From: Heterobasidion occidentale
Lineage: Eukaryota > Basidiomycota > Agaricomycetes > Russulales > Bondarzewiaceae
DNA: 64,000 bases
Assembly (NCBI GenBank): GCA_039111635.1
Contig: JBCAQO010000007.1
Coordinates: 744,001-808,000, forward strand
Direction: 5' to 3'
Positions 19,711 to 48,498 of this stretch are shown piece after piece. The translations under genes and the position numbers were made by a program. Within the stretch, counting starts at the first letter, position 1. The number at the start of each line of letters is the position of its first letter. The notes under the pieces were generated by a model, which ran no database searches, had not been told where the DNA came from, and saw nothing but the letters and a program-made list of their open reading frames with translations.

Positions 19711-19784
19711 GGCCCGGAGGATATCGGATGATGGCACTTGGAGGAGGATCTGCGCACGGAATCGGATCTGGACAGGTTTTGGAT

Positions 19785-19905: not shown

Positions 19906-20149
19906 TTCTCCTCTTTTTCATTTTCTCTGTGCGTTTGTGTCATGATTCTGCGTTCGTAAACCTGCAAAAACGATTTTGATTCGGGATGTCGGGTGGTCTG
20001 CACTATCGATAATCACGAACGACGAACCTAACATAATGGAAATACACATACCGAGCGCACACGCCGTTCGCAGTTGTCTCGGTTGGAGAGTGGTCGTGAC
20101 GGGAGCGGCCAGAAGACGTCGACGTCTGCTATGAGGAACCGTGGGAACC

Positions 20150-21343: not shown

Positions 21344-21820
21344 GCTCTCCATGTCACAATGCTAACCCCCTGCACGGCAGTACTGACCCCCACACTACAC
21401 TGCATTCTTTCCATCCCCCTCGCTCCCTGCACTCACCAACCTCGTTAAGCTGCAACCCTTCCCGGTGTTATGACTTGACCGATCGGGGCCCTTCGGGGTC
21501 GGTCTAACCGATGGATCAAGCATCACATGCTAGGCGGCTCCACTACGGAGCGTACACCAAGGTATTCGGCATGTCCTTAGGAGCCGACAAGACCAATGGT
21601 TCTTCAAGACATCGGTAAAGGCTATATGAGAGGGACATGAGGCTCACAGAATTCACACAGTAATATGAGAGGCATTCACATGCCATGGGCTTAGGGCTTA
21701 TGGGTAAGCACCTCGTCGCACCATGATGGATCAGTGCGACTGGAGAAGTACAAGAGTAGGCGCCGGCTGAGAGAGACGGCGGCCACAGCTCTCCTAGGAT
21801 GGAAACCTGGAGAAGCACAC

Positions 21821-22654
21821 TGTTAGGTCGGAGACCTATCACGTGCACCGATGCACAAAGGGGTCCCTAGGCTAAACCTCCACTGGTTCGTATAGTCGTA
21901 GACTCCAATGGATGAAGACGATGGATCGTCTTTGGGCTCTTTCGAGGAACTCGGGGTCGCTGTCGGCTTCGTTCTCGAAGAGATTGAGAAGGTGATCTTC
22001 GAGGTCTTCTCGATGATGAGCAGGAACCGGATGATCTTCTCCTGTCCAACAGATGACACGAGGGGGTGTCCAACTGAGAACGCGGAAGGCAGCTAGCCCG
22101 GTATAGAAGCGGATGAGTAGAGGGAGGGGAGGGAAGGGAGACGAGTCCAGTGCTTCGTCAGACCGTGCAAAGAGCTTCTCAGATCTGACAGAGATCACGA
22201 AGCGTGGGCTAGGAAGGTAGCCAGACGCCGGGTGCAGTGCAGAGATCGAGTGTATTACAGGTGAACGAGCTGAGCTTCTTAGAAGCTCATCTCGGCTATT
22301 TACGTACAGAAGTGTCTAGGGCAGGATCAAGATCTGGTCCGTGCGCTTCTCAGGTACCGAAGTCAACGATCGAGATCCGTAAGCTAGAATACCTCATCGA
22401 CCTGCCATATAACCAAATATAGTAATCCGATCACTAATGTCTATCCACATCTTTGATCGATCAAGAACCAGGAACGGGGGTCAGGAACCAATGTCTGTCC
22501 ACATCAAGAATCAGGAACCAGAAGTCAGCGTTCATGCATCAGCATGTAAATGGTAAGGAGTCATGGAAAACGGTCCGAGTCTGCAACGAGTCCGAAGCAC
22601 TTGACCAGCCCATCCACTCACTTGCGAAGCACGTGTTAGTACGCGGTCCTAACA
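21821..22654 (-). repeat. 3' LTR of element A
   Basis: It is 834 bp and nearly identical to 32190-33023. It contains the LTR-internal frame (21872-~22270), start motif AGCTCGTTCA and the U3 motif GATGTGGACAGACATT. The adjacent polypurine tract reads GAGAGGGGGTAG on the - strand. Confidence 0.9.
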
Positions 22655-22665: not shown

Positions 22666-24370
22666 CTATACAAGTCTTCGGCGCTTGGCGGGTGCACCGA
22701 TGGTAGGGGCGGGTCTCCTCAGATGGACTTCGTCGAACGTGGGGATGCTCCGAGCGGGGTATCCGGTCCAGTTAGCGGTGTCGATCAAGTGGTCTAACGC
22801 CTGCTTGTGGTACCCGTATTCCTCAGCCGTCCTATCCATCTGTAGACGAAGGCGCCGGGACTGCATGCGATGCCTATCGTAGTCTTGAAGAAAGCCGCGC
22901 GCCGTAACGTCCGTTCTTTGGCGAATGCCCGTGATTGGACATCCCACGACGAGATGGCCGGCGCGTCCGCATTCCCAGCAGGTACGAGTGGAGGGGTTGG
23001 TGGGTGGAGAAGGCGGGAGAGCCAGAGGGTTAGGCCAAACATTTTCTGAGTCCATGTGTTAAGACCCGGTCTTCACACGTGATGTGCCAGGAGGCTCCTG
23101 AGTCACTGAGGGACGTGCCAAATCCAAGTACGTCCGATAAAGGCACCAGCGGCTACTTGAGTGCGTAATTCGGGATGTACAAGAGATTCGTGATGGTATC
23201 GCGTTTCCAGGAATGCACAAAGGTTTTCCCACAGGTGTGCGGGTACGACCTGATGCGGACCTGGATGGCAGTAGATATGCTGCCCACTAAAGTCGAGATA
23301 GAATACCGCTAGTCCTGTGTAGAACTCAGCCAGTATTGAGATGACGACTGAGTGGTTGAGGATGATGATAGAGAGAAGCGCAGGGCAAGTTAAACCGATG
23401 CTCAAGCAGATGTTCTATTTGACAATCAAGAGTCTGGCCTATTGGCAAAGACTATGATGTAGCAGAGGTATGGCTAGTACCAAAGGTCAAGAGTAAGAAC
23501 AGGTGGGGAGTAACAAAGGTGAACGAGCTGGCGATACAGGTATCTGGCTCGTTCTATATATACGCGATCCGCTTTAGGGCAAGATCTACAGAAGGTCTGT
23601 GCTCAAGGCACCAAATAGAAGCAAAACGATCAACGATCGGAGTGATGTAATCTATGATGCGATCAGAGAAGCATGATGCAATCAATGATGTCAGTGATGT
23701 AACTGATCGTTAACCCAGGAACGAAAGATAAGATAAGATAACTCAATGTCTGTTGGTGAAGTCATGGAGTCGGTCACTGGGTATAGGTCATATCCGTTTG
23801 GTCATAGACCGCATGTCATATGATCAGGTGATCATATATCATGTGTTATGAGCCGGCTCTTAACACCATGGCGTCGGCAGGCCATCCCTCTTCAGTTGCG
23901 ACAGGAATGTCCGGCGACTGGGGGGAGGTTTCGTTGACAACGATAGGATGGGTGAGGTTGTCGCCGAGTAAGGGGGGGGATGGGGACACAGCAGGGGGTG
24001 ATGGGGGTGGTACCGGTAACGGCTGAAGTACCTGGCGATCCCGGACGACTTGTTCGGGGTCGTAAGGGGGACTGGTGGGCCACATGGATTCCGTGGTTTC
24101 TTCATCGGTGGGTCAAAAGAGTCGGGCGACCGGGAGGACTGGTTCCGTGATTGCCGGAGGATCGACGACCATGGGTTCTTCGACGTCGACCTGGTGAAAA
24201 CCTTGTTCTTGTATATCCGGCTTGGTCATAACCCAGGGCCTGACGTTATCTTCCGGGACACTTCTGCTTGACCAGTAGCTTGCGACGGGGTGAACTCCGC
24301 GACTGTTCAGGGGGAAGGAGTGAGTCGGCAAGAGTCCCTTAGGAACGTACTCCTCTATCTCTAGACGCGC
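22666..24370 (-). pseudogene. Element A accessory ORF 4: Pro-rich protein with a C-terminal CCHC zinc knuckle, interrupted
   Basis: The frame runs from ~24370 (LNGARLEIEEYVPKG) through a TGA at ~24110, then a Pro-rich stretch to 23866, where LTR-C is inserted. Across the insertion the frame rejoins exactly (PADA then MDSENVW), and it ends RRRLV with a stop at 22666, only 11 nt from the 3' LTR. The last part has CWECGRAGHLVVGC, a CX2CX4HX4C knuckle like those of Gag nucleocapsids, and a helical tail. This is a second knuckle besides the one in gag, so the ORF may bind RNA. It could be the continuation of ORF 3 by a frame change or splice near 24375 (TTCTATTTTACAG looks like an acceptor). Confidence 0.6.
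23057..23865 (-). mobile_element. Solo LTR of a third family (LTR-C), 809 bp
   Basis: The ends are TGTTAAGA...TTAACA, with target duplication CCATG (23052-23056 and 23866-23870). Orientation is set by TATATATAG (23554-23562) followed 33 nt later by AGCTCGTTCACC (start at 23529), the same start/primer motif as LTR-A. A frame ending at 23103 is related to the LTR-A internal ORF. It is inserted in element A accessory ORF 4. No internal element sequence remains, so it arose by LTR-LTR recombination. Confidence 0.85.
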
Positions 24371-24374
24371 CCCA

Positions 24375-25091
24375 TTAAGTCCTGTAAAATAGAACCAGCG
24401 GATTGTTCTCCTTGTACCTGATCCGAGCCAGAGTTTCGAGCCAAGCCACGATGGTGTGCGTCTGGAGGAGGACGGAACTGCTGCCGAAGATGCCTCCTAG
24501 CCGGAAGTTAATCATGTCGTTGCGGATGGCGGGGAGATTGATCAGCCCTTTCATGCGGTAGGAGGTGACGGTGATGTTGGCGAGGAGGATAGCTTGGGTT
24601 TGGTTGAGTGGTCCAGAGAATACTTGATAGCATTGGGCCCAAACCGCTTGCTGTAAATAAAAAAGGAAGGCACGAGGGTTCTTCAAACCGGGCTGGTTCA
24701 GAATGATGGGGGCCTCGTCCTCAGCGAGTGTGAGGTGGTAGACACTGTTATTGGTCTTCAGGTCTTGGTAGAGGTGGAGGTCATGAAGGGGGTTGGGTAG
24801 GGCGCGGATGCGGATACGAGGGTTTTCGTTGTGCACTGCGAAAGCCAATGATGGGACGACAATGTGGGGGTTCGGCATTTCAGCCGGGAAGCGGGGAATG
24901 ACAAATTCGGTGAGGGGGTCGGCGACATGGACGCCTTCCGAGGGGATGTAGTCCTCGCTGTCGTAGTCCGAGTCCGTGTCGTCAACGAGCGTGGGGGTGG
25001 TAGTGGGAGGGGTGACGGTGCGGAGGATGAAGGGATTGGGGGACGGGTGTTGGAAGCGTGAGGGGAGGTGGTAGCGGAAGTCATTCTGATG
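24375..25091 (-). CDS. Element A accessory ORF 3
   Basis: An open frame of 238 codons follows two adjacent stops (25092-25097). It has no ATG until MPNPHIVV at 24878; an ATG at 25084 lies in an overlapping frame. The N-terminal part is acidic (DDTDSDYDSEDY). The part after 24880 reads like a folded domain, with hydrophobic/polar alternation and segments YHLTLAEDEAP and FLFYLQQAVWAQCYQ. It resembles no retroelement protein I know by name. Lying directly before a CCHC-containing frame, it could be the body of a Gag-like protein (inference). Confidence 0.5.
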   Translation of the reverse strand, partial: HQNDFRYHLPSRFQHPSPNPFILRTVTPPTTTPTLVDDTDSDYDSEDYIPSEGVHVADPLTEFVIPRFPAEMPNPHIVVPSLAFAVHNENPRIRIRALPNPLHDLHLYQDLKTNNSVYHLTLAEDEAPIILNQPGLKNPRAFLFYLQQAVWAQCYQVFSGPLNQTQAILLANITVTSYRMKGLINLPAIRNDMINFRLGGIFGSSSVLLQTHTIVAWLETLARIRYKENNPLVLFYRT

Positions 25092-25421: not shown

Positions 25422-25721
25422 TTAGAGTTGTCCGATCGCTTCTGCTGCAGCTTTGATCGAGACGAATCTATATTGGGCTTCTTTGGCTGCGCTTCTCGAT
25501 CGTTGATCGCCGGTGGTGGCACTTTTGATCGAGGTACCAGGGGCGGCCTTTAGCTGCGTCATTCGTTTGTTGATTTCTTCCATGATCTGGGGGATAGCTA
25601 ATCCTGTGGCGAGAAGCTTCTTTCCGATCAGATGCTTCTCGAGCTTCTTTCTGATTTGATCTTCTTCGGCTACTCTGTTGAGTTCTAATTCGATCACCAG
25701 GGCCAGAATGGAGGCTTCCAT
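25422..25721 (-). CDS. Element A accessory ORF 1: 99-aa helical protein overlapping the end of pol
   Basis: ATG at 25721 opens a frame overlapping the last ~250 nt of the integrase ORF in another phase. The product is rich in Leu, Glu and Lys (LELNRVAEEDQIRKKLEKHL) and likely helical. The pol frame after the chromodomain (25468-~25740) is Arg/Ser/Gln-rich and looks like a shadow, suggesting this ORF is the real coding frame there. Element B also has a helical accessory ORF just after its chromodomain. Confidence 0.5.
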   Translation of the reverse strand: MEASILALVIELELNRVAEEDQIRKKLEKHLIGKKLLATGLAIPQIMEEINKRMTQLKAAPGTSIKSATTGDQRSRSAAKEAQYRFVSIKAAAEAIGQL

Positions 25722-27426
25722 TCTTTGACTGCCGAGGGTGCTGGCGGTAGAAGTCCTGTATGGCTTCTTGTGCGTTAGTGACGTTTGCCGCGGCTTCCCA
25801 AGAGTTGTCCGATTCCGGGTAGCCCTTCCATTTGATCAGGTACTGCAGGATCTTCCATCGTCCGAAGCGCCTAGCTCCGACAATGGCTTCGACTTCGAAT
25901 TCTTCTTGCCCTTCGATCAGGTCCGGAGCCGGTTTAGGGTAGTTCGGGCCATAGACTTCGTTTTCCTTGTAGGGCGTGAGTCGACTAGCATGGAAGACGT
26001 CGTGAATGCGCTTCCAGCTGTTGGGCAGTTTCAACCTGAAGTTGACATTTCCTATGGTGTCAGTGATTTCGAATGGCCCAAAGCGTTTGGGTCTCAGTTT
26101 CTCTAATGGGTGATCGGTGTGGATGTTCTTCCCATCAAGCCATACTTGGTCTCCTTTCTTGAAAGGCAGCAGGTCCGTTCCAAAACGGTCGTGCTGGATC
26201 CTCATGGCTTCGGCTGCTATTTCGAGGCTGGCTTGTGCTTCCTTCCTAGCATGTTGCAGAGCTTTGAGGCGAGCGTCGGCGGTGGGGACATTCGTGTTTC
26301 CGATGATGGCTGGGTAAGCCCGTGGTTGATATCCGTGGAGAAGTTCAAAGGGTGACTTCTGCGTGGCTGAGTGCTGATGGGTGTTGTGGGCGTATTCCGC
26401 GTAGGGGATTAGTCTGGCCCAATCGTCCTGTGAAGAGCTGCAAAATGCTCTTAGGTATTGTTCCAATTCCTGATTCATTCGTTCAGTAGCGCCATCCGTC
26501 TGTGGGTGATAGGCTGTGCTTAAAGCGGATTTGATTCCTAATTCTTTGAGCAGGGCTTGCGCTACTTTTGAAGCGAATTGAGTTCCTCTATCCGATATGA
26601 TTTTATCTGGCAATCCATAGCGTCTCCAGGTGTTTTCTAGCAAGATTTTGGCCGTTCCATCCGAGTCGATGGTTTTCAGGCATGGAGTTATTACTGCCGT
26701 TTTGGTGAATCGATTGGTTACTACATGTAGCGAGTCATATCCGTTTGATTCTGGTAGATCTGTAATAAAATCCATGGTTATTGTTCCGAAGGGTCGATCT
26801 GGGATTTCTGTTGGTTGCAATGGTACCATGGTAGGATGTGTGTCGTTCTTGGTGGATTGACAGATGGCGCATCTTTCCACATATTGGTGAACTGTGTTTG
26901 ATATTCCTGGCCAAGTAAATTCTTGTCCGACTAAGGCTAGAGTTCCCCTTTGTCCTGGATGTCCTGCTGCTAGATTGTCATGGTTTAGTTTGATGATATC
27001 TTGACGAAGTTGTTCGTTCCGGGGGACATATATCTTTCCTCGGTGAAGGACCAATCCTTCTTCGTTCCATTCTTGTAAACCTTTCTTCATGTTTCGAGGT
27101 CCTAAGGTTTTAATCTTGGCTAAGGTTTCTAATAGCCATTCGTCTTTCCTGTTTTCTTCGATGATTCGTTTCCGGAGGTCGTCGTCTATTATGGTAACGC
27201 CTCCTCGTCCAGTTGCCCTAATATGAAGTATTTGATAAGGGTCCCAACTGTTGTCTGTATTGATGGCATTGATTTCTGCAAAAGGTCTTCGGATCTTTTC
27301 TGTGTTATTGAAAAGTTTGGGCTCCAAGAGTGTTTTGCCTGAATTGTCAAATTCCACCCCCTTTTTATGGTCTGGACGCCGTGACAGACCGTCGGATTTA
27401 TTAGTGACTCCTGCCTTGTGCGTCAA
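25468..27426 (-). CDS. Element A pol, C-terminal part: integrase with chromodomain
   Basis: A 652-codon frame without interruption. It starts at the end of RNase H (KSDGLSRRPDH), followed by an HHCC zinc-binding region (NHDNLAAGH...CAICQSTK). The catalytic core has TMDFITDLP, SDRGTQFA and a Glu in TDGATERMNQ (D,D-35-E type). A C-terminal GPY/F-like module (GPFEITDTIG) is followed by a chromodomain (FEVEAIVGARR...YLIKWKGYPESDNSWE). Chromodomains direct integration to chosen chromatin. The last ~90 codons overlap accessory ORF 1 and are probably not functional protein. Confidence 0.88.
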   Translation of the reverse strand: MTHKAGVTNKSDGLSRRPDHKKGVEFDNSGKTLLEPKLFNNTEKIRRPFAEINAINTDNSWDPYQILHIRATGRGGVTIIDDDLRKRIIEENRKDEWLLETLAKIKTLGPRNMKKGLQEWNEEGLVLHRGKIYVPRNEQLRQDIIKLNHDNLAAGHPGQRGTLALVGQEFTWPGISNTVHQYVERCAICQSTKNDTHPTMVPLQPTEIPDRPFGTITMDFITDLPESNGYDSLHVVTNRFTKTAVITPCLKTIDSDGTAKILLENTWRRYGLPDKIISDRGTQFASKVAQALLKELGIKSALSTAYHPQTDGATERMNQELEQYLRAFCSSSQDDWARLIPYAEYAHNTHQHSATQKSPFELLHGYQPRAYPAIIGNTNVPTADARLKALQHARKEAQASLEIAAEAMRIQHDRFGTDLLPFKKGDQVWLDGKNIHTDHPLEKLRPKRFGPFEITDTIGNVNFRLKLPNSWKRIHDVFHASRLTPYKENEVYGPNYPKPAPDLIEGQEEFEVEAIVGARRFGRWKILQYLIKWKGYPESDNSWEAAANVTNAQEAIQDFYRQHPRQSKNGSLHSGPGDRIRTQQSSRRRSNQKEAREASDRKEASRHRISYPPDHGRNQQTNDAAKGRPWYLDQKCHHRRSTIEKRSQRSPI

Positions 27427-29845: not shown

Positions 29846-29854
29846 TTTAAAAAT
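29846..29854 (-). promoter_or_regulatory. Putative -1 frameshift site between gag and pol of element A
   Basis: Gag ends AAG AAT TTT TAA. The five-T run just before the stop lets the Phe tRNA slip back one base onto an identical UUU codon, after which the pol frame (TTA AAG CCT) is open. No downstream pseudoknot was modelled. Confidence 0.55.
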
Positions 29855-32204
29855 TCTTCGAGTCGCTAAAGGCTCGAACTTCCTCTATTTCTTCCATGCT
29901 GAGTCCCATCATCATCTGGCGGATGTGGTTGACTCTGTTTTTTCCTTCTTCGACGTCTTCATCGTCAAATTGTCCTTTGTCCATTTCTGCTTCGCGCACT
30001 GGTCTGCGACGGGGGGGCTGGAATCTTCTCTTGGGTCGAGAAGGACAGTTGCGCGCCATGTGCCCAGGTTTCTTGCAAAAGAAGCACTTGCCTTCTTTGG
30101 CAAGTCGATCTCTCTCCGCCGGGGTAAGCTTCTTGAAGCGAGTTCGGATAGCATCGGCCTCCATTTCCGCTGCGTCTACATCCATAGGTTCGTATTGGGG
30201 CTCCCTATCGTGCCGTGGGGGTGCCCTTTCATCGTAAAATGTACGCGGAGAGTAAATTTGGAATTTGCCCTTTCGGAGGTCGTATGCTCGGTCCCTTGCG
30301 ATGCGCATCCTTTCGTGTTTCTTGGCCTTCTCGACTAGTTCTTCCCATGTCCCGTCTTTAGAGGGATCTTCATAAATTCCTTTTGCCAATTCCCACTTGA
30401 GTCCTCGCAGGAAATGGGTCTTCTTGGTTTCTTCGTCTACACTGGCAAGCGCCGCGAGCTGTTCAAACAGCTGAAGGTAGGTGTTAAACGATTCCTTTCC
30501 CTGATTGACTCGGGCCAGTTTGTCGCGAGCATCGGCTTCTTTGTTGAACTCCTCGAAGTCGGTGGCTATCTTTTTGCGGATGGATGTGTAGCCGACCGTG
30601 TCTGCCCAAGTGTATTTGTTCCAATCTTTCAGCGTGTTCCTGGCCTGAGTAAAGTTTCTTGCCCATATCCCTGCTGAGCCTTCCTTCATATACGATAGAG
30701 CGTAAGCGATTTTTGCGAATTCGTTCGCATAATCTTTCTTCCTAGCCAGGAACATCAGATCGATTTTGTGGAGGAATTGCTCGGTTCGTTTTCTGTTTCC
30801 ACTGAAGGTGGTGGGTTTGGCCATAGCTGGTCCCTTGGACTCATTACCTCCAGTATCTGCCGACATTGTATCGGGCGGGGGCTCTGGATCATTAGGCGGT
30901 TCTTGATCTTCACTTGGTGCTTCAAAATACTCCGGTTCGGGGACAAACTCCGGTGTTGGGGCTCGGAAGTCTTCTTGGGGAGTGGTTTCCTGTAAGGGGG
31001 ATGTAGCGGGCGTGTTTCTTCTAGAGATTCGACTTCCACTGGCTGTTTCTCTGGGTAGAGTATGTATGTGCGGTCTTGGCGAGTCACGATGCCTATTTGT
31101 CGGTGATTCAGGCTTGTCGAAGGTCTTTCTTGCGATGTAGTCCTCGATCTTAATGAGGTGTAGGTCGGGTCCGGCGTGGACGGTCTCTCCTCCCCAAGCC
31201 GCGTATTCGTATTCGCTCTTGCCTTGTTGTTTGAAGAATCCGGTGAGGATTCCCGCGTAGTAGAAGTGTTCTTTCCTTTCGTCGTAATAAAGTTGATCCT
31301 TGTCGACGTCTTCGGGTAAATCTCCGTAGACTTCTGCTGGGTCCGTTCGGTAGCCGGGAGGGTATCCCGCTGCGACTTCATCCGTTGTTCTTTATTCTTT
31401 GAAGAAGAAGGGTACTGCCTGTCTTCTTCCAGCTTGTAATGCTTCCTATAAGTCTGGGTCCCTTTTGATAATTTCGTTGATGGAAATATCAATTTGGTCG
31501 ATGAGTTGGATGATCTCGGAGAATGTGTGCCCTGAGATGAGGGTTCGGAGATGATAAGTTTTGTGGGCGAACTCTCCTCTTCTGACAATAAAAACGATCC
31601 CTTCAATTTCTGTTCGGACTGGTGGGGAATTAGGAGCTTCCAGTGTGTCTTCCTAGGTTGAGGAGAAGGTCCAGTGGATGAGGATTGAGACGTGGTCTCT
31701 ATTCTCCTTGGTCTTGATGAGTTCTGCTCTGATTCCGTCTGTGTCGATATTCCTTGCGATGGTTCTTCTGAGATCAGGGATAACGGCGACGGGGAAATCG
31801 TCTGGTCTTCCGTCGTGTATCTCGACGCAGTTCCTTGCTCTGATGACGTCGGGCTCTCCGTTGTCCGTGAGGGTGAACGGTGTCTTTGGTTCGTTGACGA
31901 AGCAAATCCCGGAAAATCTGTATCCAGTTTTAAGGAGGTCTATAAAGATTTCGGGTGCTTGTTGTAGCCTGAGTGTGGCTATTCCTGAATAAACTTTTCC
32001 TGGGTTCCGGTGTCTTGCGACCTCTATAGCTCCGGGGTTGTTTATTCTTCCTTGAGGGATCGCTGCTGGGGTTGCCGTTAGGTTTACCCTGTTGGCGATC
32101 GCTAAAATGTTGTTGACTGATGAGAGAAAGAGTTGTTTCTGCTGGGGATCCAGCTTTGAATAGGGTAGGGATAAAAGAGCTCGTTCAAGTGTTAGGTCGG
32201 AGAC
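29847..32204 (-). CDS. Element A gag with a long, Met-free N-terminal extension frame
   Basis: The usual Gag would start at ATG 30866 (MSADTGG, 339 aa) and ends with TAA at 29847. It has a capsid-like helical region and the knuckle CFFCKKPGHMARNC. The same frame, however, is open and protein-like far upstream: 31391-30867 (EVAAGYPPGYRTDP, FYYAGILTGFFKQQ), 31652-31449 (EIEGIVFIVRRGEF) and 32204-31656 (LFLSSVNNILAIANR). Only three stops interrupt it (31653-31655, 31446-31448, 31392-31394), and it contains no Met codon before 30866. Either Gag begins at a non-AUG codon or the upstream part is an exon or a separate product. This extension is inferred from composition and phase. Confidence 0.65.
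30755..31381 (-). CDS. First AUG-initiated frame of the element A transcript, overlapping gag
   Basis: The first ATG after the predicted RNA start (31379-31381) opens a ~209-codon frame that overlaps the gag start by 112 nt in another phase. Its product is rich in Thr, Ser and Arg and looks like a shadow of the gag-extension frame. It may act as an upstream ORF limiting translation from the gag ATG, or be meaningless. Confidence 0.3.
   Translation of the reverse strand: MKSQRDTLPATERTQQKSTEIYPKTSTRINFITTKGKNTSTTRESSPDSSNNKARANTNTRLGEERPSTPDPTYTSLRSRTTSQERPSTSLNHRQIGIVTRQDRTYILYPEKQPVEVESLEETRPLHPPYRKPLPKKTSEPQHRSLSPNRSILKHQVKIKNRLMIQSPRPIQCRQILEVMSPRDQLWPNPPPSVETENEPSNSSTKSI
32178..32187 (-). 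promoter_or_regulatory. Self-primer binding site of element A
   Basis: TGAACGAGCT starts two bases after the 5' LTR. It is the exact reverse complement of AGCTCGTTCA (32631-32640), which lies ~31 nt below a TATA-like TAAATAG (32665-32671) and so at the predicted RNA 5' end. This arrangement is known from Tf1 and sushi-like elements, which prime with their own RNA rather than a tRNA. Confidence 0.75.
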
Positions 32205-33023
32205 CTATCACGTGCACTGATGCACAAAGGGGTCCCTAGGCTAAACCTCCACTGGTTCGTATAGTCGTAGACTCCAATGGATGAAGACGATGGATCGTCT
32301 TTGGGCTCTTTCGAGGAACTCGGGGTCGCTGTCGGCTTTGTTCTCAAAGAGATTGAGAAGGTGATCTTCGAGGTCTTCTCGATGATGAGCAGGAACCGGA
32401 TGATCTTCTCCTGTCCAACAGATGACACGAGGGGGTGTCCAACTGAGAACGCGGAAGGCAGCTAGCCCGGTATAGAAGCGGATGAGTAGAGGGAGGGGAG
32501 GGAAGGGAGACGAGTCCAGTGCTTCGTCAGACCGTGCAAAGAGCTTCTCAGATCTGACAGAGATCACGAAGCGTGGGCTAGGAAGGTAGCCAGACGCCGG
32601 GTGCAGTGCAGAGATCGAGTGTATTACAGGTGAACGAGCTGAGCTTCTTAGAAGCTCATCTCGGCTATTTACGTACAGAAGTGTCTAGGGCAGGATCAAG
32701 ATCTGGTCCGTGCGCTTCTCAGGTACCGAAGTCAACGATCGAGATCCGTAAGCTAGAATACCTCATCGACCTGCCATATAACCAAATATAGTAATCCGAT
32801 CACTAATGTCTATCCACATCTTTGATCGATCAAGAACCAGGAACGGGGGTCAGGAACCAATGTCTGTCCACATCAAGAATCAGGAACCAGAAGTCAGCGT
32901 TCATGCATCAGCATGTAAATGGTAAGGAGTCATGGAAAACGGTCCGAGTCTGCAACGAGTCCGAAGCACTTGACCAGCCCATCCACTCACGTGCGAAGCA
33001 CGTGTTAGGACGCGGTCCTAACA
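32190..33023 (-). repeat. 5' LTR of element A
   Basis: It is 834 bp. On the - strand U3 runs 33023-32641, with two GATGTGG(A/T)...ACATT units and the TATA-like box. A perfect hairpin (GAGCTTCT-AGAAGCTC, 32641-32657) immediately precedes the start motif. R-U5 (32640-32190) holds the LTR-internal frame. Confidence 0.9.
32241..32640 (-). CDS. LTR-internal ORF of family A, without ATG
   Basis: The frame is open from the predicted RNA start (32640) to TAG at 32241, about 130 codons with no Met. It ends inside the LTR. The second half (FYTGLAAF, VICWTGEDHPVPAHHREDL, FIHWSLRLYEP) is shared with the other A LTR (21872-22198), the older solo LTR (20966-21292) and, distantly, LTR-C (23103-23405). Identical residues in A and C mostly use different synonymous codons. 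Initiation would need a near-cognate codon or a spliced upstream exon. No known domain was recognised. Confidence 0.5.
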
Positions 33024-33262
33024 CACACGGACTCTTACCCTATACCCCATACAGTATATAAGGCCCATAGAATAGGCTGAGGATCTTCAGTCTATTCTCT
33101 CTGTTCCCCCTGTATCTACACATACAGGATTCTTAGAGCCAACTATTATCCCCTCCTGTATCATCGCCTGATACAGTCGAGACTTCGCCCACCACTCAGT
33201 CCATTGTGTGACCTAGGGAAGAACCTGTTACTCTTGGGTTACTGAACGAGCAGTTCGTAACA

Positions 33263-33542
33263 CTAGAATAGACTCGCTTTTGCCCCTACCTTGCACCACA
33301 CTCCGCTTGCTGCCACACTCTCTCTCACAACCCTCATCGGCGGAGCCATAGACCTCCACCGAAGAGAGTTACTTCACACACCCTGGAGCAAGACCTAGGC
33401 CTAGGATTTCCACCAGGCACTAGACGAACCAATAACCAACTCCGACAGAATAATCGTCCTATCCATCAAAGAGAAAATCGCTGGTATTATTCCGATACCA
33501 ATCGGCCAGCACCCCCAAACTTTGATAACTGCTCGTACCGAG
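33263..33542 (+). other. B1 leader with self-primer site and gag-frame extension
   Basis: AGAATAGACT (33265-33274) is the exact reverse complement of the predicted RNA start AGTCTATTCT (33089-33098) and lies two bases after the LTR, as in element A. After the TAG in this site (33269-33271), the gag frame is open through 33542 and, across the B2 insertion, from 44392 to the gag ATG at 44586: 155 codons without Met. There is no ATG in any sense frame from 33089 to 44585 once B2 is removed. Confidence 0.7.
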
Positions 33543-34158: not shown

Positions 34159-36742
34159 TTACCCCCCTTTCTAGGTCCCAACTCCTGAGGGGACTACTCG
34201 CTTGAGCAGCAGCGAGCTTCATCGTCATTCCACGTACAATTGCTTGCTGGTCGTCGGAATAGATTGGGATGCATCTTCCCAATATCGCTTCGTTTTCTGG
34301 GGCAAAGACCGACCTACGTCGTTTACAACGCCTAGGAGTTTTCCTTCTCCGTTGAGCTGTTTGATTTGAAGTTCGGGGTATAGCCACAATACCCTGTCTC
34401 TTCTCCCGGTGTTCTTCCTTCACCGCACGTTTTGTGTGAGTACACTCCTAGAGTCAATAGGCAGCTACTCGACCAGGGCTCCCTGGTAGGTTTGTTAAGC
34501 CAGTATTTTCTCTGGCGACGATGCAGAAAGGTGTCGTGCGAACGATTATAGGATGAAATAGAAACTCGTCTGTGGATAGGTGTGTGTCGTTCTTCTTCCA
34601 AAGTGCCGAAGGCCATGCTTCAGTGTTTCCAGGATAGATCTTCATCTCCTTGATCTCCGGTATCAAGGGGGACTCCAGGTGTGTGGGTTGATCGCTTTAC
34701 TAAGGCTTAGGCCCACCAACCTATCAAGAATAGACTTTTCTTGACTTGTTTTGAGTCTGGCAAGACCCCTTTGAAGATCCCTAACTCTGTCAGCCCCATA
34801 CGGTGGCCCGTCCTGGTTAGAGATTGAGTGTTCGTCCAGAGTTTGTTTTTCACAAGGGAGCGAGCATGTAGCAGCGCTCCACGTATTGAACACGAGGTAA
34901 GGACTTTGAAGAATAGATTTTGAACCCCATGGTCTCTTGAATAGACCATGGTATCCACCTTGACGGTAATTACGTGGGGTCAGCGTAAGGTATGTCCTGG
35001 TAGTTTAACGTCATGCCGGACGTCCGTAGTTTTGCATCTTTGCGGACGTACGCTAGTTTATCCTTAAGTCGTTGCAGACTGAGGCTAGTTTATACATAAG
35101 TCGTTGCGGACTGTCCTGCTAGTTTATGCCAAGGTCGTTGCGGACCTATCCATCTCCCAATGTAAGAGTACCTGTAAACAAGACAGCAGGCGTTTCTGCG
35201 TGCCGGAACATTCATCGGTGATGCGCATAGGGCCGTAGACCAGTTCCTCCTTCTTGACAGGGTTCCCATTAAGGTAAGATGGTGACGGTTTATACTATAT
35301 CAAACCGGATAACTTATAGAGTTGCGAGAATAGACTTTTAAGCCTATTTTGACACAACTCACATGGCCCTGTAGACAGAAGGGCAGCTCAGTTTATCGTC
35401 ATGAAGGACGGCAACTAGTTTATAGTCATTGCGGACGTCTGCTATCGCCTGGCTTGAACCTCCCGAGCCTCGATAGATTTAATCCTCCGGGGTGAGGGTA
35501 GTTTAAGGTCATTTCGGACTAGTTGATGGTCAAGGTCGTGACCATCAACCACGTCTCCTATGCTTGAAGGAGTAAATAGTTTATCGTCATTGCGGACTAG
35601 ATCAACATCGTGGTGTCAACAACGATGTCGATCGACATCTCCTCTGCCGAAAGGAGTGGTAGTTTAACGTCTTTGCGGACGCAGCAATGCCAAAACATAT
35701 CTCATGTTTGGACACTGCTCACAACCCTGTAAGGAAAGGGTAGTCCCAGTTTAACGCCATGGAGGGCATCCGTAGTTTATCGTCGTTGCGGACATGCGTA
35801 GTTTTACATCGTTGCGGATGATCTACAACACGAGGCACGGTCCCAGTTGCCTCTTGACTGGCCCTTGAAGCGGAATCCTTGCTTCGGACTTCAAGGGTAG
35901 AATGGGCACGCCATGGAGTAGTCGTGGCCTTGTCGGAAGGCTGACAACCCGCTCCATGTTCCCAAACCCCTCGCACGGAATTGAACCGTGTCGACCCCAT
36001 ATTCTTTTACTGTAGGGCGTATGGAATATGGAAGCGCCTCGACCTAGTCGGCAGGGTTCTGCAACGGTGGAGGCCCTCACTTCCACCGTCTGCCAGAATG
36101 CAACCACGCTCCGAGGGTCTTGGTAGCTTTAGCGTCGTTCCGGACGGTAACTAGTTTATCGTCATTGCGGACCAAGCCTTTCGTAGTTTTACATCGTTGC
36201 GGATGTATTTTCTCCGTTTTGGGTACTAATGGAGTGCGGCCATCAGTTCCTGCATCGCAGATAGGGTCCCCTAATGCGGAAACGACCCTGTAAAACCGGA
36301 GATCCAAAGTGGGACGTCCAAGACACCTGTCAGACCTTGACAGCGAGGTTGGTCCACCGTTCCCCAACGGTGGGTATGCATCACGATTTCCCACCAATTA
36401 TTCATGCATCATTCATGTACCAGTCAAGGTTATGTGTGAATCCTAAGGGCCTCCTAATGCGGAAAGGGCCCTGTAAAACTGGGGATCCAAGCGGGACGCC
36501 CGATTCGCTTGTCAGAATACCTCTTGACAACGAGAGTGTTGAATGCTTGTCCTTCATCTTGAGACCGGAGGGCTGCAATACGAAATGGTCAGGTACTTCC
36601 CCTGCCTTCTTATCTTTTCACAGTTTAACGTCATGCAGGACGTTAATTCCGGCGTCCTGTGCGTGAAACCGGTACCTGTGATGCGGAGGGTCCTTTCCTC
36701 TCCGTCATCATGTTAAAACCAGGGGTTCCTCAACTCCCTGGT
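34159..36742 (-). repeat. B2 3' noncoding region with dispersed ~20-nt motif
   Basis: Between 35001 and 36643 about 17 copies of a motif (- strand: GTCCGCAAYGACGNTAAAC, then TA) are scattered at irregular distances. Hairpin-forming spacers lie between them. The B1 copy at 51174-52820 has the same order. No protein-like frame runs through this part. Positions 34159-35000 hold no recognised feature besides the polypurine tract. Confidence 0.75.
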
Positions 36743-38119
36743 TTAGTATCCTCCGCCAATGTCTCCGTAATCCCCATATCCTTCATCTGGCCGATAATAG
36801 GGGTCGACGTCGTCGTAATTGTCGCCTTCGACCTCGTCCCAGGCATCTAGTTCCGCTCGAGTCCAGGAAGTAGTTCGCTGAGTCGGGCGCTGGCGGATTG
36901 GAGTTCTTCTACCAATGTGTGGATGCGCTCCTTCAGGTCGATTATCTCGAGGACGGTTTGGAGTCGGCGAATCTCTTGGTCGAGCTCTTCTAGGACTGCT
37001 TCGCCTGGGTTGAGGGATTGCCCTTGTTCTCTGGCTCCCTCGTCCCTCATTCCTCCTGTACCTTGGAGGATGTTCCTCATTGCTGCCTCCTGCGTCCTGC
37101 CCGGTGGATTGTCCTGCCGATATGGGAGGAAGGGCCTCTCGGTCCCTTCGTGCCTGTCGTTGGACCGTGGTCCAGACATATTCGGTCTGGGAGGATGCGT
37201 CTCGACTACTTGTAGCCGGCACCGCTCTGCTAGCTTCGCTCCATGTCTGGACGCGGAATGGGTCAATCCGAACGGGAGGGGCGTGGTGAGAATGTCTTGT
37301 GTCGGTGTGCGAGATGAGGGCGGGTAGGAGCTCCAGATTGATGAAGGAGGAGAACTCGTCCGGGTGAATGAGTAGGGCGTAAGCCCCATTATTTCCTCGG
37401 GCGTACCAGGAGGCGGCCCTATGATCATCTGCATAGGCCAGAAGCCTGACCTGGTCGCTCGCGTCAGCGAGACGTCGGGGTACGTCGTCGCTCTCGCTCC
37501 CTGGTTGCCCTGCGAAGAAGTTAGCGAGCCTTTGTAAGGCCAGCGCTGTGGCCATCTGAATTACCGCGGAGATGGTGGTGCGCTGGAGTAGGGCGTCTCC
37601 TAGTCCTTCCAACTCTCCGGGGTGCAGATCTCGACTACTGGTAGGGGGCCCTCTGGTCCTGGCAGCTGATGTACCAGCCGTTGCTGGTTCTTGTACACCT
37701 GCCTCAACAGTTGTAGGCGATGCCAGGTCCGAAGGGTTTCCTGGTCTTCTTCCGCTTCTCGTTTCCTGTCTTGCGTCTCCTTGAGCCAACGCTGGCGTCG
37801 GTCGCGGAGGCGTTGACGGAGCGTGCCTTCCTTCTGCTTGACGTCCTTCATCGTGCTCGTCATGAGCTCTCTCAAACCGTGGTGAGGCTCGGGAACCCGT
37901 TCGATCCTCGACGGTGAGCGTGGTTTGGTGGACACTGATTTGTACTGGAACTCCTTCTGGAGTCGTTGGGCGGCTGCTTCGGCTAGGGCGTCCAGTGTCG
38001 GGGTTGGCCACGGCCAGAATGATGTCTGGCGAGGGGTTTCTTGAAGGGGAGGAGGTAGTTCCGTCATCGATGAGCATGGCACGTCCAGGGGAGTATTCCA
38101 GGGAGGAGTGGTCGGACAT
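36743..38119 (-). CDS. B2 accessory region: overlapping frames encoding a coiled-coil protein and a downstream domain
   Basis: Two frames overlap. Frame b (38082-37600, 160 aa) encodes a basic coiled coil (LRQRLRDRRQRWLKETQDRK). Frame a (38119-36743, 458 codons) has a folded-looking segment in its second half (LLAYADDHRAASWYARGNNG, HPDEFSSFINLELLPALI) and an acidic Tyr/Gly tail. Compared with B1, frame b is identical at all 160 residues, while frame a over the same DNA has about five replacements. Further down, several differences are silent in frame a. The likely product is therefore frame b continuing into frame a by a frameshift near 37600, or two proteins. A third frame (37434-36847) is open but less conserved. 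No homologue is recognised. Confidence 0.55.
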   Translation of the reverse strand: MSDHSSLEYSPGRAMLIDDGTTSSPSRNPSPDIILAVANPDTGRPSRSSRPTTPEGVPVQISVHQTTLTVEDRTGSRASPRFERAHDEHDEGRQAEGRHAPSTPPRPTPALAQGDARQETRSGRRPGNPSDLASPTTVEAGVQEPATAGTSAARTRGPPTSSRDLHPGELEGLGDALLQRTTISAVIQMATALALQRLANFFAGQPGSESDDVPRRLADASDQVRLLAYADDHRAASWYARGNNGAYALLIHPDEFSSFINLELLPALISHTDTRHSHHAPPVRIDPFRVQTWSEASRAVPATSSRDASSQTEYVWTTVQRQARRDREALPPISAGQSTGQDAGGSNEEHPPRYRRNEGRGSQRTRAIPQPRRSSPRRARPRDSPTPNRPRDNRPEGAHPHIGRRTPIRQRPTQRTTSWTRAELDAWDEVEGDNYDDVDPYYRPDEGYGDYGDIGGGY

Positions 38120-38176
38120 GTACTGGGGAGGATTCTTGCTTTTGAAAGAGGGAGGGGTGTCTCCCTTTATATCTTT

Positions 38177-38485
38177 CTAAAGCCTAATCGCCGCTGGTCG
38201 GGGTTTGTCTGGGTAGCTTTCGTGGAATTCACGAAGCGCCTCGTCGGCCGTATCTTTGAGGAGGGCAAAGGGTTCCCAAGTGTTATCGGCCTCGGAGTAT
38301 CCGACCCACTTGACAAGGTACTTGGTCCCTCGTCCCTGGCGTCTTGAATCTAGAATGGCCTCCACTTCGTAGTGCTCTTCTTCATTCAGGATCTCTGGGG
38401 CAGGTCTGGGGAAGTTCCTTCCGTGAGCCTCTGTTTCGTGATATTCCGTGAGCATGGAGGCATGAAACACCGGTGTATCTTCCAC
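38177..38485 (-). CDS. B2 chromodomain
   Basis: The frame has the GPY/F-to-chromodomain segment: LTEYHETEAHGRNFPRPAPE, then YEVEAILDSRR and KYLVKWVGYSEADNTWEP. It is the C-terminal end of integrase but lies one base out of phase with the integrase ORF (38386-38751). The same offset occurs in B1. Confidence 0.8.
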   Translation of the reverse strand: MEDTPVFHASMLTEYHETEAHGRNFPRPAPEILNEEEHYEVEAILDSRRQGRGTKYLVKWVGYSEADNTWEPFALLKDTADEALREFHESYPDKPRPAAIRL

Positions 38486-39556
38486 GTTTCGGGTATTTCC
38501 AGCCGATAAGCTAGAGGGCCGATTCTTTCAGTCACTGAAAAGGGGCCATAGCGTCGAGGTGCTAGCTTGAATTTCGGGTGAGTCGTCCGAATGTGGGTTC
38601 CTTCTAACCAAACTTGGGTTCCTACTTCCCACTGCGGAAGTTTCCTGTGTAGGTCCTGGTCCTTGGCGTGCTGCGCTGCTATTTGTAGACTTGCGGCCGC
38701 ATCTTCTTGGACTTCTTTGATTAGCCGCAAACGTTCAGTTACTGCGGGCACCTTGGTCTCCAGAGCTGAGTCGACCGAATATGGAGGATTGAACCATAAA
38801 GGACTTCAAACGGCGACTTCCCAGTGGCGGAGTGTCTTCGGGTATTGTGGGAGAATTCTGCGAAGGGGATCAAGTCTACCCAGTTATCTTGATGGTAGTT
38901 GCAGAAAACTCGCAGGAATTGCTCGATCTCTTGGTTACCCGTTCTGTTTCTCCGTCCGTTTGAGGGTGGTAAGCCGTGCTGAGGGCAGGGGTGATTCCCA
39001 TTCCTTTCCATAGTTCCCTTGTGAACTTTGCCGCAAATTGAGGACCTCTGTCGGACACCACTTTGGTTGGTAAACCATATCGTTTGAACACATTGTCCTG
39101 GAAGAGCGTCGTGGTTTCTTCGGCCGTGATTGTCTTCTTGCACGGGGTTATGACTATTCCTTTTGACAGACCCTGATCGACTACCACATTGATCGAGTCG
39201 TAGCCTCTGCTTTCCGGGAGGTCTGTCACGAAGTCGGTGGAGATAAAGCGCCAAGGGACGTTTGTGGTTTCCAGCGGTTGGATCGGTGGGTGGGTCCTAT
39301 GGGGAAGGTTCTTGGTAGATTGGCAGACTGCACATCCATCCACATATGCATGTACAAATTTGGTCATGCTTGACCACCAGTAATGGCGTTGGACCAATTC
39401 TAAGGTCTTTGCTTGGCCCGGGTGTCCTGTAGCCATAGTGTCATGGTGCGTTTTGACAATCATTCGTCGAAGGAGGTCGTCCTTTGGGACGCATATGTAA
39501 CCGTCGCGTCTTGTGATGCCCTCTTCATGTGTCCATTTTCCTAGGTCGCCCTTCAT
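38386..39556 (-). pseudogene. B2 integrase, frameshifted
   Basis: The N-terminal part (39556-38876) has the HHCC region (THHDTMATGH...CAVCQSTK), STDFVTDLP, SDRGPQFA and TDGETERV, then leaves frame near 38945. The C-terminal part (38751-38386) resumes with EVGTQVWLEGTHIR and GPFSVTERIGPLAYRLE. The equivalent B1 frame is continuous here, so the break is specific to B2. Confidence 0.82.
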
Positions 39557-41463
39557 TGCGTTTGGACCTTTTTCCAGCAGTTCTTGAGGGCGACATCAAC
39601 CAGCAAATCGTGTTCCGAGCGTGAGTGTCGAATAAGGGAGAGGATGTCCGAGGATACGAGTTCCGTTGCTTTGACGTGTATGCCTTCGCTTGGTTCTACT
39701 AGAGTTTCGCTGGACTCGGTGAAAAGTCTAGACGGGAGTAGAGTCTGTGCCTTGTTATCAGATTCCACCCTCACTAAGGTCTGGACGCCTGGACAGAGCA
39801 TCGGCATGATTCGTAGTTCCAGCCTTGTAACTGAGCTGGAAGTCAAATCGGGACAAAACAGACTCCAGCGTGCTTGTCGCCTTGACAGGTCGCGCGCCGT
39901 CCTTAAAGTGTTCTAGGTTTTATGGTCCGTCCAGACCTCAAAGGGATGTCGAGCGCCGAGGTAGTGTTTCCAGTGTTCCAGTGCTTGATGATGGCGAGGA
40001 GCTCGCGATCATGCACGTCGTAATTTCGTTTGGCCGGTGAGAACGATCCTGAGAGGTATGCAACAGGGTGCCAGTCGTTATCAGGTCCTTCCTGTAAGAG
40101 GACTGCACCATGTGCTGCGAGGGAAGCGTCGGTAACAAGCCGGTAAGGGCGCATCGGGTCAGGGTACAACAGGACGGGTCGGCTGGTGAAGGTTTTCTTC
40201 AGTCGATCAAACGCCTGTTGGCACTCTGTGGTCCAGTCCCATTTCACATCCTTCTTCGTGAGGTCATGCAGGGGCCGAGCGATCAAAGAGAATTTATCAA
40301 TGAATCGTCGGTAGAAGTTCCCTAGGCCTAGGAAAGAGCGGATGTCGCGAACTGTACGTGGGATGGGCCATTCCTGGATAGCTTCAATCTTCGAGTCTTC
40401 CATAGCGACGTGGTCTTTTGAGATCGTGTAACCCAAGGTAGTTCAGCTTCTCCTTGTGGAACTCGCACTTCTCTGGTTTGAGGTAAAGATCGTTGTCGCG
40501 CAGGATTTGGAGGACTCGCCGAAGAATCACAATGTGTTCCGCTGTGGTCTTCGTGAAGATGAGGATGTCGTCCATATATACCGCTATTTTCCGGGCCAGG
40601 ATGAGTTCTTGGAAGATCATGTTTCATCATGGCTTGGAAGGTTCCGGGGAATTACAGAGCCCAAAGAACATCACTGTAGGTTCGAAGAGTCCCAAGGGTG
40701 TGACGAAGGCTGCCTGGACCTCGTCTCCTTTCTTGATGCGCACGTTGTTATATCCCCACCGAACATCGAGCTTTGAGAACACCGTTGCGCCTTTAATGAT
40801 ATCCAATAGTTCTTGGATTAATGGCAGGGGGGGACATCTTGAATGGTGTGTTCGTAAGGTGGCGATAGTCTTGTACCGGACGGAGCTTCCATCTTTCTTG
40901 CTTACAAAAAAGAAAGAAGCCGCGCTGTGTGCTGTTGACCGACGTATTGTTCTTCTGGAAAGGTGCTCCTTGACGAACTTCCCTAACTCATCATGCTTTT
41001 CCGGGCTTAGAGGAAATATCCGCGGGGCCTGGGGTACAAAGGATGGTTTAAGATTTATCGCGTGGTCCCATATTGTATGTTGGGGAAGCCTTTGCGATCG
41101 TCGTTCGCTAAAGATGTCGAGGTAGGAATGGTACTCTGTCGGCACCCGACCCTTCAAGTCGGTGGTGTCGATTTCTTCCTCCAGATCTTCGTCAAAGCTT
41201 GCGAACCCCGAGGGTTCTGGAGCTACCTTCCTGATGACGGGTTCCCCTGCGCTATCCATTGCGGAGGGGTCAAACTGTGTTTGCGCCTTTTCAGCGACTT
41301 TTCCTGAAGCTTCGCCCTGGGCTGCCTCTTGTTGGGCTTGCCGGTGTTCCTTTCTTTCGGCTACTTGTTCTTCGAGCCACTCCCGAGCCTTGCGTTGTCG
41401 GGATTTGTGCTCGAGTAGTTCCATGAACCGAGTTTCCATTCCTTCGCGGGTACTTGGCTCCAT
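39557..41463 (-). pseudogene. B2 RT and RNase H, frameshifted
   Basis: The RT N-terminus and palm (41463-40627) contain [16 protein letters not shown] and MFFGLCNSP; the frame then breaks. The catalytic YMDDILIF lies in 40620-40384, and the connection and RNase H in 40436-39903 (FLGLGNFYRRFIDKF, LVTDASLAAHGAVLL, HDRELLAIIK). A short deletion ends that frame, and the SRRPD/integrase linker follows at 39846-39553. Confidence 0.82.
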
Positions 41464-41538
41464 TGTTCTTTAGTCCAAGTCCACGAGGGTCCTACCGGTT
41501 CTGAGACAAGATGCGGTTTCGTCCGCTGAGGAACCTTG

Positions 41539-42018
41539 TCACCGCGTAGTTTTCGCTAGCCATGCCTTCTTGGTAGGCTCTTCCCTTGCCTTGGTAAACC
41601 CATATGGTTGTCGGCAATCTCTGGGGCAACGATCAAAGTGTACTTCACGGCGCCTCCACCCGATGGAGGGGTCATGGTATCTCAACCAATCCGTTCCTAG
41701 GAGCATGTCGTCTTTCCCTAGATTGGTGATGAACATCTGGACGCGTTCAGTGTGAGTTCTCCCTCGTCTATCCTTGACGGTGAGATTCGCGTCTAGGCCT
41801 CGTCGAATGAGGCCTGCTTTGTTGATGGTGTCATCGACGTTGCGAACGCAGATGGGGCGGTTTAAAGGATAGGTGGGGAGATCGTGCTTCCGTACCCACT
41901 CTTCATTTACCAGGATCCCTTCGCATGCTGAGTCGATGGCGGCTCTGGCTCCAGCGCTTCTTCCTCGAGTTGTTAATCGCACGTCAAGTCGAATGGGGGT
42001 AATAATGTGACTGTTCAT
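41539..42018 (-). CDS. B2 aspartic protease
   Basis: A 159-aa frame has AAIDSACEGILVNEEW at the catalytic position and the core segment MLLGTDWLRYHDPSIGW, as in Gypsy proteases. The usual D-S/T-G triplet reads D-S-A here and in B1. ATG at 42018 begins MNSHIITPIRLDV. Confidence 0.72.
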   Translation of the reverse strand: MNSHIITPIRLDVRLTTRGRSAGARAAIDSACEGILVNEEWVRKHDLPTYPLNRPICVRNVDDTINKAGLIRRGLDANLTVKDRRGRTHTERVQMFITNLGKDDMLLGTDWLRYHDPSIGWRRREVHFDRCPRDCRQPYGFTKAREEPTKKAWLAKTTR

Positions 42019-42094
42019 TGCTCCGATTCGAATATATGAGGGGAATCATACTCGAGTTTCCTCGACCCTCTCTCTTCGGCTGGTGAAGGAGAGG

Positions 42095-43590
42095 TCAGGA
42101 AAAATCCTCTGCCAGATCCACCAACATTTGCCTTTGCTCGGCCTTCCCTACTCCTTGGAAGAGCGCTCGGACGCCATTAATATCACTGATGGGTCCGTTG
42201 CTTCGTCGTCCGTTTGGCGGTACGTAGCGCTCTCCATCGCTCTGGCGTGATCCTCCCTTCTCGCAGAAGGGTCCTCACGTTCCACCGAATTACCAGGTTG
42301 TGGTACCGACGGTGGTGGCCATGAGAACTCCCCTCCTCCAATCCTCGATGTAATCGCGCATCGTTTCCACCGGGGATTCTTGCTCGTCTTCATCCTCCAT
42401 GTCTGCAGCGCGAGTTCGTCTACCTCCTCTGCCCACCGACTTGCGCGAATTTCCTCGAGACGGGGGAACGCCTCTACGAGGGGAACGACAATCAGCTATC
42501 CGTGCCCTGGTTTCCGCAATTGTAGCAGGAAAAGGGAGCGGGTCTCTTGCCATCGTATACACGCTTGTTCCGATCGGCGTCTCTTTTGCGAGAGGCGTCA
42601 ATATCCATGTCAACCACTGGTTGTTCATTCTGCGAGGAGCGGTGGTAGAGTTATAACGACGAGCGGACTGGAGGTGGAAGCGATTGAGGAAGTCGCTTCG
42701 GAATGAGGTGGAGTTGGCGAGGATCGCCTTTTGAGCACTTCGGGCTCTCAAGCGTCCATCTATTTCACAGGCAGTGTTGACCAATCTTGGATCGTGTCCT
42801 TCGGCGTAGTTTCTTTGTCATAGATCTTGTCCATGACTCTCGGATCGAGCCCCTCTGGAAGTAGGGAACTTGTTCCCTGTCGGTGATGTCGGCGTCGGCG
42901 GCGATAAGGATGAATTGGTTTGAATATTCATCCACCGTCATCTTCCCTGAGAGAAAGACATGAGGGCGCTTCGGGCTTTGTCCGTAAGGTTGTCTCCTTG
43001 AACTGGAGTTTAAACTTGACAAGGAAGTCGTCCCAAGTTCCTACGGTCTTGGGCGGGGTCGCCCCTACTGTCTTTCTTTAGGAAGCTCTCTGACCATACG
43101 ACGGCCGACCATATCTCATGCACGAGAGAGCGAGAGAAACATTGTCTGAATCCGTCTTGTACCGGTCTGGTTCTGCTGTGAAAAGGAGGAGGCAATTCAT
43201 GATGAATTTCTGTGATTGTGTTCGGTCCCCTTCAAAGTTATCGGGGAGCTTGAGCTTGCCCCTTCCCGACAAGACGGGGGGGGTCTGTAGGATTTGACAT
43301 AATATTTCGGGTGTTGATCGGTGTTTGAATATCCGAGGATTCGGACTCGGATGTTCCTTCTTCTTCCTCCGATGTGTCCGGGATTCCCGTTCGGGGTTCC
43401 TGTACTGGGGGGGCTCTACCCAGTCTTCTGTTGTTTCGTCCCAAGCCCACTCAGCTTCTGTTCCGTCTTCTCTTGTGAAGAAGTATCGTCCTTCTTGGTA
43501 CGAGCAGTTATCAAAGTTTGGGGGTGCTGGCCGATTGGTGTCGGAGTAATACCAGCGGTTTTCTCTTTGATGGATAGGACGATTGTTCTG
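42095..43590 (-). pseudogene. B2 gag, frameshifted
   Basis: Pieces in several phases cover the N-terminal acidic linker (DTSEEEEGTSESES, 43450-43238), the capsid-like region (KFIMNCLLLFTAEPDRYKTD; KMTVDEYSNQFILIAADADI) and a C-terminal part ending near 42095. The zinc-knuckle codons are shifted; only the IADC end is in the long frame (42784-42290). The B1 copy breaks at different places. Confidence 0.75.
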
Positions 43591-48496: not shown

Positions 48497-48498
48497 AA

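Follow-up and report, generated by a model that had tools for sequence, protein, structure and literature searches.

The long transcribed leader of element A, an LTR retrotransposon of Heterobasidion occidentale, was found to be nearly free of ATG on its sense strand, and we propose that it forms the 5' part of a polycistronic RNA that would be translated by leaky scanning past weak non-AUG start codons. From the sequence evidence given below, we put the probability of this reading at about three in four. The ATG desert, which runs from the predicted RNA start to the gag ATG, is confirmed to be real. Judged by its coding signal, this leader encodes protein in the gag frame, a property that the original prediction had overlooked. 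Moreover, ribosomes probably do initiate upstream, at weak near-cognate codons, given this coding in the gag frame and the CTG and ACG codons that are conserved, in optimal context, where its frames begin.

Element A lies in the window, i.e. the whole stretch of 64,000 nucleotides analysed here, which belongs to an assembly of 45 Mb in 159 contigs. Its main features are as follows.

33023-21821, minus strand: element A, LTR retrotransposon, recognised by its LTR pair and target duplication
32190-33023, minus strand: 5' LTR of 834 bp, pairing with the 3' LTR; the copies align from 33023
21821-22654, minus strand: 3' LTR of 834 bp, pairing with the 5' LTR
32666-32671, minus strand: TATA-like TAAATA, 31 nt upstream of the predicted RNA start
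32631-32640, minus strand: predicted RNA 5' end and self-primer, a 10-nt complement of 32178-32187; the same pair occurs in family C
32178-32187, minus strand: primer binding site of the self-priming type, 2 nt past the 5' LTR
30867-32640, minus strand: whole leader of 1,774 nt, with 2 ATGs in the window copy
31382-32640, minus strand: stretch of 1,259 nt that is ATG-free in all frames of the window copy
29847-30866, minus strand: gag (Retrotrans_gag and zf-CCHC), its ATG at 30866 kept in 58/58 copies
25468-27426, minus strand: integrase with chromodomain (rve, Integrase_H2C2, SH3_Tf2-1, Chromo)

The two LTRs differ at 5 positions, and a GTGTG duplication flanks the element on both sides. Its Pfam families are Retrotrans_gag, zf-CCHC, aspartic protease, integrase, SH3_Tf2-1 and chromodomain. 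The integrase, with its domain matches in 25471-27426, bears a chromodomain, as in the Tf1/sushi-group chromoviruses, and in both element A and family C the primer site is complementary, by sequence, to the predicted RNA 5' end; by these two features element A is classed as a self-priming chromovirus of the Tf1/sushi group. An LTR end followed by a self-primer site is a pattern found at many places in the genome. The RNA start at 32640 had been assumed in the original prediction, and we infer it independently from the 10-nt self-primer pair and the TAAATA at -31, which support it.

Further open frames were observed between the integrase and the 3' LTR (22669-25091, minus strand), among them one of 238 codons from 25091 that had no Pfam match, and a zinc-knuckle-like motif was seen by eye near 23000. 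The open frames are perhaps an extra 3' gene that was split by a solo LTR of family C. The flanks of element A (21466-21820 and 33024-33263) are 100% identical to a copy at 53633-54223; since that copy is uninterrupted, with a 5-bp overlap of the flanks, element A looks like a recent insertion into a repeat. The window also holds an inverted pair of another element (34883-43282 and 44603-52937), the arms of which are 89-100% alike in pieces and which includes a reverse transcriptase match below threshold at 40630-41463. Two stretches about 42 kb from each other (15878-20029 and 57830-62149) are direct repeats and roughly 91-98% alike, the latter with a 127-nt tandem unit at 61434-61867. A fungal protein kinase domain (Pkinase_fungal, E 9.5e-17) lies at 55667-57796 on the minus strand. 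Rfam and tRNA scans of the window found none.

It had been claimed that no minus-strand ATG occurs for 1,259 nt from 32640 and that only two, at 31381 and 30892, precede the gag ATG at 30866; both statements proved exact on recount (32640-31382 for the former). The nearest minus-strand ATG upstream of the leader is at 32659, and the 1,278 nt from there to 31381 make up the longest inter-ATG gap on either strand of the window, the runner-up being 714 nt. The chance expectation of about 28 ATGs was overstated, as this number holds for equal bases (27.7). The expectation is 21.0 under the leader's own base composition (T 0.20, G 0.20) and 11.8 ± 2.8 in dinucleotide-preserving shuffles, none of which (0/2000) had two ATGs or fewer. 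The described abundance of ATG next to the desert was reproduced, with 10 in the 383 nt of U3 (33023-32641) and 28 on the opposite strand of the leader, and both numbers are ordinary (8.6 and 26.2 expected, respectively).

Counting ATGs over the copies of family A, as the original prediction had proposed, bore out the desert. Of 76 loci, 65 span the distance from the RNA start to gag (11 were dropped), and removal of 7 duplicates left 58 distinct copies; since the copies were found by likeness to the window leader, decayed ones are under-sampled. There is no leader ATG in 29 of the 58 copies. The other 29 carry one (11 copies), two (7), three (5), four (2), five (2), ten (1) or twelve (1), and CAT occurs 23-39 times per leader in the same set. 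The ATGs fall on 44 sites, each present in at most 4 copies, and the window ATGs at 31381 and 30892 are each found in 2/58. The highest counts (12, 10, 5 and 5) belong to the diverged copies L072, L073, L074 and L076; L075, which is 86.8% identical to the window, has none. ATGs are also carried by the diverged L069-L071, which do not span the leader and stand outside the 58, and by L085, an old truncated relative of A.

At 27 of the 44 ATG sites the commonest alternative is ACG, as expected from CpG decay. We compared, in 53 close copies, how common the C>T and G>A variants are. Of the 27 that create an ATG, none reached at least 5 copies, as against 58 of the 264 others (p = 0.0018, a value to be taken only as a guide because the copies share ancestry). 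The same test in U3 gave 2/6 and 17/71, respectively. At the lowest cut (at least 2 copies), ATG-creating variants were no rarer than the others (15/27 vs 152/264). Under synonymous shuffles the ATG depletion was weak, with 2 ATGs vs 6.25 expected for three ORFs jointly (86/5000 shuffles) and 525, 2483 and 1146 of 5000 for the ORFs singly.

The desert occurs a second time in family C, another and diverged chromovirus family, of which one solo LTR lies inside element A.

23057-23865, minus strand: solo LTR of chromovirus family C, flanked by duplicated CATGG
23333-23103, minus strand: homologue of the R-ORF (see below) in the R-U5 of this solo LTR, by homology to the R-ORF of A

The segment 23529-23055 was considered as an internal second promoter of element A and was rejected, since this is the family C solo LTR. 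The 10-nt self-primer pair of A is found in family C too, with TATATATA at -33, and the four leader-bearing copies of C (L079, L081, L082 and L084) all have the self-primer motif at the RNA start. In three of the four, the leader has no ATG between +1 and the one at +783, and 23-25 CAT; L081 has one extra ATG at +746. The ATG that ends the desert opens a frame which reaches a zinc-knuckle motif (by eye) in L081 and is thus read as gag. The last upstream ATG in the four copies stands at -274 or -144. Therefore, the exact coincidence of the desert edge with the predicted RNA start, which had been claimed and which does hold in A, is special to A, whereas in C the edge lies further up.

Taken together, the desert is common to the copies, recurs in family C, extends from near the predicted RNA start as far as gag, and variants that create an ATG stay rare, all of which supports selection against ATG. 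The original prediction of selection thus stands for ATG in the transcribed leader, by the copies, family C and the variant frequencies, but not for upstream initiation as such. The evidence supports selection that would act against AUG initiation rather than against every upstream initiation.

The leader holds five open frames, which are listed here with their candidate starts.

32241-32519, minus strand: R-ORF, 92 codons and TAG, inside the R-U5 of the LTR; candidate start CTG 32519 (gcaCTGg)
31653-32153, minus strand: ORFa, 166 codons and TAG 31655; candidate start CTG 32153 (aagCTGg)
30755-31927, minus strand: ORFx, +1 to gag, 390 codons and a stop; candidate start CTG 31927 (aaaCTGg)
31392-31643, minus strand: ORFb, 83 codons and TAA 31394; candidate start CTG 31643 (acaCTGg)
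30867-31385, minus strand: ORFc, a 173-codon in-frame extension of Gag, Met-free and ATG-poor; candidate start ACG 31385 (acaACGg)

The window copy of ORFb has an additional in-frame TAG at 31448, and the frame of ORFc is open on into gag for 514 codons from 31391. Methionine codons are absent from ORFa, ORFb and ORFc of the window (0/421) and from the R-ORF (0/92). The stops are kept as well: TAG 31655 in 58/58 copies, the stop at 32243 in 57/58 and TAA 31394 in 52 of the 53 compared. Over 400 random copy pairs, pN/pS in the gag frame was 0.22 for the R-ORF, 0.26 for ORFa and 0.14 for ORFb, whereas the other frames of these ORFs gave 0.71-2.50 (1.21 and 1.51 for the R-ORF). The three ORFs are thus under purifying selection in that frame. 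Variable sites were in excess at codon position 3 in three data cuts, for R-U5 32479-32244 (p = 0.02, 0.0023 and 0.00019), ORFa (p = 8.7e-7, 7.6e-4 and 9.1e-5) and ORFb (p = 7e-4, 7.2e-3 and 0.041). The beginning of R, the tail of U5 and the primer region showed no such excess. In the U3 control, codon positions were even in two of three cuts, and the highest frequency cut gave 7, 6 and 17 (p = 0.025). In the first 120 nt of R (32520-32640, minus strand), which is without a known ORF, frame f1 gave pN/pS values of 0.47 and, against L075, 0.29, on few sites.

For ORFc, comparison of close copies with the window gave pN/pS of 0.15-0.22 in its own frame vs 0.76-1.11. Over all pairs, diverged ones included, the values were 0.55 in its own frame and 0.49 in the ORFx frame, and the ORFc linker had no clear codon-position signal. 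The ORFx frame has no stop, against 5.7 ± 1.4 under synonymous shuffles (0/5000), and the stop-avoidance controls gag, protease and integrase were normal. In 30/58 copies ORFx stays open as far as the alignment reaches. The constraint on ORFc in its own and the ORFx frame and the stop avoidance in ORFx suggest that two overlapping frames, ORFc and ORFx, may both be in use.

Relatives in the genome were numerous. Of 276 candidates for ORFa, 150 were scored (58-100% amino acid identity); of 237 for ORFc, the 150 scored had 504-528-codon frames into gag, at identities down to 67%; and the frame was unbroken in most of the 150 scored among 467 for the R-ORF. Outside the genome, one protein among 81 candidates was related to a piece of ORFa, none among 379 to part of ORFc, and no relative was found in viral_contigs and genome_contigs. 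ORFa matched no Pfam family at E <= 1, and a 68-codon piece of ORFb gave a sub-threshold match alone (E 0.13). An AlphaFold2 model of ORFa (two sequences) was discarded, its mean pLDDT being 33.

The R-ORFs of A and family C share 30% identity over 71 amino acids (E 4.5e-8), and the variable sites of the family C R-ORF by codon position are 2, 0 and 12 (p = 1.4e-4). A second ORF of family C is weakly like ORFb (E 0.023); its codon positions (5, 2 and 8) gave no significant excess (p = 0.17). Furthermore, two of the 14 CTGs in family C are in optimal context, and these are the starts of the R-ORF and of the next ORF.

We took a purine at -3 and G at +4 as the optimal context, which is said to be required for starts in leaky scanning, according to the accessible text of PMC3542737. 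Of the 19 CTGs in the leader, 5 are in this context and 4 of the 5 stand at ORF starts. CTG 32519, 32153, 31927 and 31643 are in optimal context in 58, 58, 56 and 57 of 58 copies, respectively, the codon at 31643 itself being present in 58/58; the fifth, inside ORFx, is kept in 18/58. ACG 31385 is in optimal context in 53/58 copies and is ATG in 3 and ACA in 2, and no GTG in the leader has such a context. Two more optimal ACGs, at 31861 and 31813 inside ORFx, are also conserved; a start is thus not defined by its context alone. Three different upstream frames (in the window and L075, in L025 and others, and in P0001) enter the same protein at CTG 32153, as expected if coding begins there. Since the coding signal of the R-ORF was seen from about 32480 and none was shown for 32519-32480, CTG 32519 is the best candidate for its start but the least certain of the starts. 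The 57-nt stretches behind the starts gave no consistent stem-loop: of the five, one folded better than shuffles (z -2.1), and the others had z from -0.7 to 1.4.

In the proposed mechanism, ribosomes would enter at the cap and scan towards the gag AUG, about 1.77 kb away. Some would initiate at CUG 32519, 32153, 31927 and 31643 and at ACG 31385, giving the R-ORF, ORFa, ORFx and ORFb products and an N-terminally extended Gag, and the remaining ribosomes would scan on. An AUG in any frame would divert ribosomes from Gag, and AUG would thus be purged from the transcribed part but not from U3. The absence of AUG from cap to gag, the few near-cognate starts in the required context and the ORFs without internal AUG form the pattern that leaky scanning needs. 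The RNA start, the use of near-cognate codons and the scanning itself are steps that we infer.

The leader ORFs could instead be untranslated relics, with ATG avoidance protecting only the scanning to gag. Purging of ATG alone would explain the desert, including the non-coding start of R, the U5 tail and the primer site. However, low pN/pS is confined to one frame (0.14-0.26 vs 0.7-2.5), the coding signal ends at stop codons, and open frames persist down to about 60-80% amino acid identity, which makes this explanation unlikely. A little less probable again is readthrough of TAG 31655 and TAA 31394 that joins ORFa, ORFb, ORFc and Gag into one polyprotein, for which these lie in one frame in the window, L020, L044 and L075. 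Such a polyprotein would still need a non-AUG start and the passing of two successive stops, and it leaves unexplained both the out-of-frame ORFx and the conserved optimal CTG 12 nt past TAG 31655; moreover, the two ORFs and the gag ATG of family C are not in one frame.

An AUG might also be supplied to the leader ORFs by a spliced or alternative transcript, as U3 is rich in ATG. Under this explanation AUG need not be missing from every frame of the leader and the optimal context of near-cognate codons need not be kept, and we regard it as improbable. That chance or composition in a single founder copy produced the desert is hardly credible: the leader is indeed poor in T and G (0.20 each) and the copies do share ancestry, but 0/2000 shuffles came down to two ATGs, the desert recurs in family C with an R-ORF just 30% identical, and the frequency test on ATG-creating variants (0/27 vs 58/264) argues against it. 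Leaky scanning past non-AUG starts is the reading that we prefer. Its fullest form, for which the odds seem evenly balanced, would be a clade of fungal LTR retrotransposons with four CUG-started proteins (one within the LTR and one dual-coded over others and gag), an ACG-started extended Gag, leaky scanning and a first AUG 1.77 kb from the cap.

If this is true, several accessory proteins of an LTR retrotransposon are made with no AUG at all, over an AUG-free scanning distance about twice the one given in the literature for rice tungro bacilliform virus. Such proteins would escape gene finders that require ATG, and annotations of 'untranslated leaders' in LTR elements would need re-examination. 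Hundreds of copies with different accidental ATGs offer a natural experiment on the cost of an upstream AUG. In the accessible portions of the literature, mostly non-subscription (including PMC3248453 and PMC2864245), we found no LTR retrotransposon for which such a leader is described. The principle is known; the carrier, the length, the number of non-AUG ORFs and the ORF within the LTR appear to be new.

Among known systems, Tf1 and Tj1 are self-primed, the RNA 5' end being complementary to their primer binding site, and the accessible description of both mentions no AUG-free coding leader (PMC4600332). Compared by that description only, element A resembles them in that its primer site is complementary to the predicted RNA 5' end.

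PEG10 derives from the Tf1/sushi group. For this retrotransposon-derived gag gene, initiation at a CUG that lies 102 nt ahead of the AUG is proven, according to the accessible part of PMC2800197. Unlike element A, it is described there as a single mammalian gene with a 34-residue extension. Murine leukaemia virus makes an N-terminally extended Gag from a CUG in frame with the AUG-started Gag (PMC3542737, accessible text). Element A is similar in its in-frame non-AUG extension of Gag (ORFc), as predicted from sequence, but the putative start is ACG rather than CUG and several more ORFs lie upstream.

The closest pattern is that of ORFs I-III of rice tungro bacilliform virus (Futterer et al. 1996, 1997), which, in the accessible text of PMC3542737 and PMC5902531, are long consecutive ORFs without internal AUGs, the first starting at AUU, with scanning over about 895-900 nt to the third. 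Element A likewise has consecutive constrained AUG-free ORFs before an AUG-started ORF, and candidate near-cognate starts in favourable context. The virus is described in those sources as a DNA pararetrovirus with a shunted leader bearing uORFs and an AUG for ORF II. Element A, unlike it, is an LTR retrotransposon known from sequence alone, with a leader of 1,774 nt, no AUG-started leader ORF and one ORF inside the LTR. To our knowledge, Caulimoviridae are without LTRs and integrase; element A has both and is not a member of that family.
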